Of a stretch of DNA of 64,000 nucleotides, positions 25,881-29,168 are shown piece after piece. This DNA comes from Burkholderia sp. USMB20 (GTDB lineage Bacteria > Pseudomonadota > Gammaproteobacteria > Burkholderiales > Burkholderiaceae), in the NCBI RefSeq assembly GCF_000949135.2, contig NZ_JTAN02000019.1, positions 1,054,001 to 1,118,000 on the forward strand, in the 5' to 3' direction. The translations under genes and the position numbers were made by a program. The notes beneath the pieces were generated by a model. That model was not told where the DNA came from, searched no databases, and saw only the letters and a list, made by a program, of their open reading frames with translations. The first letter of the stretch is position 1. Every line of letters begins with the position of its first letter.

Positions 25881-26312
25881 TCATTCAACAATACGTTTAA
25901 AACTGTTGTAGTGGTCGTCCGTGTAATAACAGTTGTCGATCCGGCGCAATGGCCCGCCACAGACGATCCGGCGCGCGCCGCGATTGCGCGCGCGCGGCGT
26001 CGGCACCGTGTACTCGTGGTAGTAGCCGCGCTTCGCCTTCGGCAGGATCCGCTCGCGGTTGCCGAAGACGACGCCGTCCTTCTCGTACGGATAGGGGCCA
26101 CCGGCGCCGATCAGGCCAAGCGTGGTCACGGCCTCGCGCGGCAGACGGGCGGTCGGGATCGTATCGACCCCGCCGACGGCCAGGTCGGCCGAAACGGCCT
26201 GCCGTGCGTAAGCGGCGGAAACCAGACTGCCCGTCGGTGTACCGACGATACCCATCGCGAACATCGCGAAGACGGACGCGAGCGCGCCGTTGCGGAGCCA
26301 CTTGCGTGCCAT
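25881..26312 (-). CDS. Secreted guanyl-specific ribonuclease (barnase/N1-T1 family)
   Basis: A 143-residue RNase. A Sec signal peptide covers residues 1-36 (basic start, hydrophobic core, cut after AYA), leaving about 107 residues. All three catalytic positions of the barnase family are visible: Glu100 in GYYHEYTV, Arg114/115 in ARRIVCGG, and His134 in YTDDHYNSF. Cys118 and Cys128 could form a disulfide. The barstar-type gene follows directly, as expected for an RNase whose precursor must be held inactive. Local base composition in its 3' end is lower in GC than the surroundings, a possible sign of transfer. It could serve nutrition or competition; the sequence does not decide. Confidence 0.88.
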   Translation of the reverse strand: MARKWLRNGALASVFAMFAMGIVGTPTGSLVSAAYARQAVSADLAVGGVDTIPTARLPREAVTTLGLIGAGGPYPYEKDGVVFGNRERILPKAKRGYYHEYTVPTPRARNRGARRIVCGGPLRRIDNCYYTDDHYNSFKRIVE

Positions 26313-26462
26313 GAACCAGGGTTCCCGCTGTTAAATCAAGTAGTTGACGACCAACCAAAGGCGTTAGCGTAGCGCTATTGTCCGCGCGAATCAATGTTCG
26401 TTTGGGAACCGAAAGGCTGGCTCCGCCCCGAATCGCGCATTTTTTACCGAAATAAGACTACA

Positions 26463-26484
26463 TTTATCTTACGTGAGATAAAAT
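26463..26484 (+). promoter_or_regulatory. Promoter -10 with overlapping palindrome (candidate operator)
   Basis: TAAAAT (26479-26484) fits a sigma-70 -10 box, with a poor -35. A perfect inverted repeat, arms TTTATCT (26463-26469) and AGATAAA (26476-26482) around TACGTG, overlaps it. The expected transcript start falls at about 26490, exactly where the RNA stem described next begins. Confidence 0.45.
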
Positions 26485-26488
26485 ATCC

Positions 26489-26625
26489 GCGGCATCTCTC
26501 GCATGGCAAGACCTGCCTCCTTGCCACGCCCGCTAACCTGGGTGGAGAGATGCCGCTGTTGCTTATGGGAAGCGCGTTTGCGCCCTGCCCGCGGCGTGCC
26601 CATTGCGGGCACGCCTCTTTTTGCT
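26489..26625 (+). ncRNA. Candidate structured small RNA with three-way junction
   Basis: No protein is encoded here. The sequence folds on paper into P1, 12 perfect bp (26489-26500 with 26545-26556), enclosing P2 (TGGCAAG 26504-26510 with CTTGCCA 26520-26526) and P3 (26527-26531 with 26540-26544, one G-U pair). P2-P3 and P3-P1 abut without linker; only three bases join P1 to P2. A short GCGC hairpin (26572-26583) and an intrinsic terminator follow. No plus-strand gene lies downstream until thiL at 29169, so it looks like a free-standing RNA rather than a leader. I do not recognize the family: it lacks the conserved parts of SRP RNA, tmRNA, RNase P or TPP riboswitches. Confidence 0.55.
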
Positions 26626-26629
26626 TTTG
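26593..26629 (+). terminator. Intrinsic terminator of the candidate small RNA
   Basis: Arms GGCGTGCCC (26593-26601) and GGGCACGCC (26607-26615), a perfect 9-bp stem, followed by TCTTTTTGCTTTTG. The T run is on the plus strand only, so it ends plus-strand transcription, not that of maeB coming from the other side. Confidence 0.85.
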
Positions 26630-26687
26630 TTTACAATTTCGCCCGCCGCGCGGCAGCGGTTCGACCGACGCCGCGCGTTCATTCCGC

Positions 26688-28990
<2,303 letters not shown>

Positions 28991-29168
28991 GTGTCTCGTG
29001 GCGGGCGGATTAGAATGACTGTTCGACGGCATTGTAGCGCCAATCGAAGGCCGTCAGACCTGCGATTCGGGTGCGACAGCCGCGACATAAATGTACTGAA
29101 CGGTGCAGGAACGGCACCGCTCGCTGCGTACAATGCCATTCCTTTCACCGCTTCCGGGTTCCTCCGCC

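Follow-up and report, generated by a model that had tools for sequence, protein, structure and literature searches.

Positions 26489..26622 (plus strand) of a 64,000-nucleotide stretch of Burkholderia sp. USMB20 DNA, the whole of which we call the window, hold a predicted small RNA of about 134 nt whose ends are placed from a -10 box, a first stem (P1) and a terminator. This RNA is a member of a conserved structured RNA family that is new to Rfam 15, and its kind is already known, that of small RNAs with an anti-Shine-Dalgarno loop. As far as sequence allows one to judge, the family is on balance probably trans-acting, its members pairing through the loop of a hairpin (P2) with ribosome-binding sites under the control of a dedicated regulator; we infer its transcription, its pairing with mRNAs, its targets, and the regulator with its sign, all of which are predicted. 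The RNA has what a free-standing small RNA should have, namely its own terminator, a promoter-like sequence and no same-sense gene after it, as well as what points to action in trans: a structure preserved through compensatory changes, and an unpaired seed that is likewise conserved.

The minimum-energy fold agrees with the architecture described in a first-pass annotation of this DNA. A 12-bp stem, P1 (5' strand 26489..26500, 3' strand 26545..26556), encloses two hairpins in a three-way junction with three unpaired bases (26501-26503): P2 (26504..26526; 7 bp, 26504-26510 with 26520-26526), which carries a nine-base loop (ACCTGCCTC, 26511-26519), and P3 (26527..26544; 6 bp, 26527-26532 with 26539-26544), whose loop is variable. 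The strong plus-strand terminator that had been placed at 26593 was found there as well (26593..26622), as a hairpin of 9 pairs (26593-26615) followed by the U-rich tail TCTTTTTGCT, and the P1 stem begins four bases past the TAAAAT box read from the sequence at 26479..26484 (plus strand), on which, as had also been seen, an inverted repeat lies (26463-26482). TAAAAT fits TAnAAT, the -10 consensus reported for B. cenocepacia J2315 in the part of PMC4603805 covered here. Three features go beyond the earlier description: a fourth hairpin, P4 (26567..26590), seen both in the fold and in the genus consensus; the anti-Shine-Dalgarno character of the P2 loop; and the outcome of a sigma-70 scan, which gave no plus-strand match, so that a good -35 box is lacking. 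The fold of 26487-26625 reaches -72.3 kcal/mol (z -4.8), a value equalled by none of 200 shuffles. A search for tRNAs and tmRNA returned none.

At the Rfam 15 gathering threshold the window gave no match, and a relaxed search of 26300-26720 gave five chance-level matches (best E 1.3), in line with the initial failure to place the RNA in a known family. By blastn, on the other hand, the segment 26455-26630 matched 54 of the 65 genomes in the genus of G001, the nearest genome, with which the window has 43% of sampled 31-mers in common; from its best matches, the window seems to affiliate near the B. cepacia complex. A covariance model built from the window and the 54 blastn loci of the genus found the RNA, at E <=0.001, in 95 of 398 genomes of the family, distributed over 4 of 25 genera (60 in g1, 2 in g13, 10 in g25 and 23 in g20). 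The five remaining genomes of the genus, searched apart, all matched, which brings the RNA to 65/65 genomes of the genus plus three sister genera. In a sample of 399 genomes from the order there were three matches, all within the same family and none outside it, the filters of the family and order searches both being strict enough to miss weak matches. Scanning named genomes with a sequence pattern returned 63 stretches: 26 from Burkholderia, including B. cenocepacia, B. cepacia, B. ambifaria, B. anthina and B. territorii, and 37 from other organisms. When 3 of the 26 and all 37 others were scanned with the model, the three Burkholderia loci scored E <=4.4e-29 and the best of the 37 E 0.081, so the latter were rejected as homologues outside the genus. 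A distant blastn search of a plasmid collection gave no match.

Support for the structure comes from covariation. We assembled an alignment (A3, n=35) from the window, 10 of the 54 genus loci and 24 of 40 distant loci; left out were 44 genus loci and 16 distant ones (L169, L171-L182, L184, L186 and L187), whose 5' half could not be aligned or which, for L187, represent a locus elsewhere. Within this selected set, whose fitting to the model favours the structure, changes on both sides were seen at 9/9 modelled pairs of P1, 6/7 of P2 and 5/5 of P3, more weakly in P4 (4 of the 7 pairs in its two helices), and at 27/37 pairs overall. Compensatory changes in P1, P2 and P3, whose lack had been named beforehand as grounds for abandoning the RNA, are thus abundant. 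Cells of A3 pair in 94.9% of cases, as against 80.1% in shuffles and 38-50% with slid partners; none of 500 shuffles reaches any of five covariation measures, and the terminator hairpin has its pairs intact in 100% of cells. Two observations weigh against that bias. Folds of single sequences, made without any alignment, show the junction in distant members such as L148, L149, L156 and L183, and in a structure-free alignment of the genus both-side changes already occur at 7/37 pairs, although the covariation term is small (-0.89).

The P2 loop stands out from these changing stems. TGCCTC is present in 35/35 sequences of A3 and the longer TGCCTCC in 33 of them (the exceptions being L158 and L166), while in the genus set 54/55 sequences have TGCCTCC and the last, L020, has CGCCTCC. 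This loop is complementary to GGAGGCA, which makes a strong Shine-Dalgarno site; in its RNA form, CUGCCUC, it resembles the 3' end of 16S rRNA. Pairing with Shine-Dalgarno sites would predict freely changing stems around a near-constant loop, which is the pattern found, and 26511-26519 is therefore the likely seed.

The second conserved element lies at the promoter. The dyad TTTATCT-N6-AGATAAA (26463..26482, plus strand, 20 bp, with TACGTG as its spacer) overlaps the -10 box and is a probable operator; with up to two mismatches allowed it has no other match in the window and none in 100 shuffles. Its conservation together with the RNA, which the first-pass annotation had proposed to check, holds throughout the genus, where TTTATCY-N6-RGATAAA is matched exactly by 49/55 sequences and with one mismatch by 6/55 (55/55 at <=1 mismatch). 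Among 24 distant junction-bearing loci, 22 have a relaxed form of the dyad at <=2 mismatches, a form picked after inspecting the sequences and compared with a single-base shuffle control for these loci; L154 has three mismatches and L158 five. In L165, L167 and L170 one copy lies further upstream and a second, degenerate copy sits at the -10 box. Paired changes within the dyad, such as TTTAGC with GCTAAA, hint at a two-fold symmetric protein site, probably that of a DNA-binding regulator. Such sites are rare in the rest of the genomes: the strict pattern is present in 3/10 genomes, always at the RNA promoter, and the relaxed one has 1-3 sites per genome in six genomes, where the reversed pattern has 0-1 (palindromes, which appear on both strands, being counted once). 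The RNA promoter is among these sites in 5/6 genomes, the single site of G155 lying elsewhere, and the remaining sites have various neighbours. Neither the strict scan of 10 genomes nor the relaxed scan of 6 revealed a wider regulon, so the dyad looks dedicated to the RNA gene. Since it sits over the -10 box, we infer that the bound protein would more likely repress than activate. A different dyad (TTTATCACG...CGCTAAA) occupies position 1501-1520 of L272 and L279, apparently the same place in two genomes; in L279 it is near a gene that, named by eye, encodes a TetR-like regulator, and it may be that regulator's own site.

The RNA gene is flanked by minus-strand genes on both sides. Divergent from it is a gene for an exported guanyl-type ribonuclease (PF00545, 25881..26312), upstream of the RNA and accompanied on the same strand by a barstar-type gene (PF01337); convergent with it is a malic enzyme gene (26688..29032) with a C-terminal PTA_PTB domain. 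On the plus strand no credible gene follows until near 29.1 kb, the malic enzyme gene in between being on the minus strand, which bears out the initial conclusion that the RNA is not a leader. The ribonuclease gene accompanies 54/55 genus loci and the malic enzyme gene 55/55; the locus without the ribonuclease (L031) was fetched too short there, and L063, from NCTC13227, a strain that we take to be identical with J2315, was fetched from a genome already represented. From the 45 places that scored under 100 bits in the family covariance search, 40 distant loci were fetched, and both genes are present in 38 of them, the exceptions being L158 and L187. The former (1501-1624) is a second copy of the RNA in genome G040, with the junction and a TGCCTCT loop, without the dyad, and set between genes that look by eye LysR-like and asd-like. 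In J2315, BCAL3394 is described as a putative exported ribonuclease (PMC11054960, in part) and BCAL3395 as malic enzyme (PMC3596321, in part), the latter at complement 3719319..3721676 (PMC4603805, in part). The counterpart locus of J2315 likely lies between these two genes, just below 3,719,319 of replicon 1, on the basis of the matching genes rather than of a DNA comparison; another malic enzyme of that strain is BCAL0205. Two observations concern the neighbours themselves. In the window the malic enzyme gene falls into two reading frames, with a break near 26.98-27.02 kb, through an assembly error or a disabling mutation. Upstream of the ribonuclease gene, the letters of 26330-26410 hardly vary among the 55 sequences of the genus alignment, less so than those of the RNA; this stretch is likely the ribonuclease promoter and 5' leader on the minus strand, and a regulatory leader may lie in it.

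Rhizobial anti-Shine-Dalgarno small RNAs are known to present exposed CU-rich loops to ribosome-binding sites. Such loops are likewise a feature of the Neisseria NmsR RNAs, as cited in the covered part of PMC5688073. For the new RNA, the Rfam search returned no match to any family of this sort. Closer at hand are ncS03, ncS05, ncS27 and ncS62, double-hairpin RNAs of B. cenocepacia assigned to RF02278 ('toxic small RNA') in the same part of PMC5688073: they too come from Burkholderia, have unpaired CU-rich stretches complementary to ribosome-binding sites, and end in a terminator. They differ, however, in being 57-92 nt long, with two hairpins, and in occurring several times per genome, whereas the new RNA has about 134 nt, a three-way junction and usually one copy; RF02278 was rejected, as it is absent among both the curated and the relaxed Rfam matches. 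MtvR, a 136-nt RNA of B. cenocepacia reported to cover the hfq ribosome-binding site (PMC4046987, in part), is alike in length and genus, and was rejected because the complement of its published Northern probe (Table 2 of that paper) has no exact match in any of 220 loci. Other J2315 small RNAs, such as ncS35, ncS37 and ncS54 (PMC5688073, same part), are also terminator-bearing, strongly folded, conserved and intergenic. The 15 biofilm small RNAs of Table 1 in that paper were all rejected by position, since all lie elsewhere; the highest replicon 1 entry is 3666557, as compared with the counterpart locus beside BCAL3395. The same text mentions a list of 148 small RNA start sites, held in its supplement. 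More widely, the RNA is not listed in the J2315 small RNA tables of the main texts covered here, and the covered parts of PMC5688073, PMC4603805, PMC4046987, PMC4035088, PMC10175445, PMC10987360, PMC5719362, PMC3521395, PMC11054960, PMC3596321 and PMC3862766 place no small RNA between the ribonuclease and malic enzyme genes. One explanation for its absence from the biofilm list of PMC5688073 would be a promoter that is silent in biofilms, other reasons being possible.

Other readings of the locus were weighed against that of a trans-acting RNA. The constancy of both neighbours could mean that the RNA acts in cis, either against read-through from the malic enzyme gene or on the ribonuclease and barstar genes; we hold this to be unlikely, as stable gene order is the sole link to the neighbours, the second copy in L158 sits elsewhere, and the start region of the ribonuclease gene has, by eye, no GGAGG. 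A compact junction with a constant loop would equally suit a protein site, in which case the RNA would chiefly bind and titrate a protein, such as a chaperone or an RNA-binding regulator. Such a role is about as unlikely: the constant letters are exactly the Shine-Dalgarno complement, and an unsystematic look noticed no repeated motif of the sort typical of titrating RNAs.

Compact three-way junctions with few unpaired bases are also a common aptamer scaffold, and a regulatory or ligand-sensing RNA had initially been envisaged. Of this proposal, a free-standing structured RNA with its own terminator and a promoter-like region is supported. Ligand sensing finds no support: the most constant unpaired part is the Shine-Dalgarno complement in the P2 loop and not the junction, and the RNA has its own terminator with no plus-strand gene for about 2.5 kb, which makes a ligand sensor or a ribozyme very improbable. 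The same low probability applies to a gene for a small protein, or to a conserved stretch of DNA that has no function as RNA. Two open frames (26394-27449 and 26503-27126) do cross the region in the window, but indels among the relatives break a common reading frame across the RNA, which counts against a protein-coding reading, and the stems covary as RNA pairs with a terminator downstream.

If the RNA acts in trans on ribosome-binding sites, it would be transcribed independently, from a promoter that has a TAnAAT box and no good -35 box and is controlled by a protein binding the dyad that overlaps the -10 box. Given that this site is almost confined to the RNA promoter, the regulator would serve mainly the RNA gene. 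P1 would close and protect the 5' end and hold two hairpins in a compact junction, P2 would present the CUGCCUC loop as a seed, and P4 and the terminator would make up the 3' end. The loop would then pair with Shine-Dalgarno sites of the GGAGGCA type in certain mRNAs and block ribosome binding.

As for targets, a search of four genomes for GGAGGCAG located 2-8 nt before an ATG identified one gene common to all four, a FadB/FadJ-like gene of fatty acid breakdown, which has the leader GGAGGCAGGCAG-ATG in each of them (L191, L204, L214 and L221). GGAGGCA precedes 18/21 FadB-like orthologues from RNA-bearing genera versus 0/5 from genera without a match, a contrast in which clades are confounded; the count derives from 34 rows after removal of 7 g25 paralogues (46-50% identity) and of L270, the second copy in G077, and both g25 orthologues are without GGAGGCA. 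The predicted duplex energy lies below that of 178 other starts, for a gene picked by pattern and a background without GGAGGCAG starts. Among the controls, GGAGGCGA also gave a string common to 4/4 genomes, equalling the FadB-like lead, and GGAGGACG gave one common to 3/4, the fourth genome differing by one letter. Because the control patterns do as well, the FadB-like gene stays a mere lead as a candidate target.

The seed itself may be dispensable in some lineages. The 19 loci fetched from g20 comprise three with the junction (L166, L183 and L185), one located elsewhere (L187) and 15 in which the loop-bearing 5' half is rebuilt (L169, L171-L182, L184 and L186). These 15 retain a P4-like hairpin and the terminator, and the upstream dyad is found with no mismatch in 11 of them, one in L176, two in L171 and L180 and three in L182, counted with the relaxed form chosen after seeing the sequences and with no shuffle control. 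The operator at the -10 box is retained across four genera and doubled in some members. A bolder and rather doubtful idea is that the RNA is the single output of its dedicated regulator, a one-gene signalling unit making a broad translational blocker, and that one lineage has swapped the effector while keeping the control.

These results describe a well-supported RNA family that Rfam 15 does not contain, in bacteria of medical and agricultural importance. Its structure, seed and operator are directly testable, and the constant operator offers a way to identify the regulator and its signal. The rebuilt members in g20 constitute a natural experiment on effector change under constant control.
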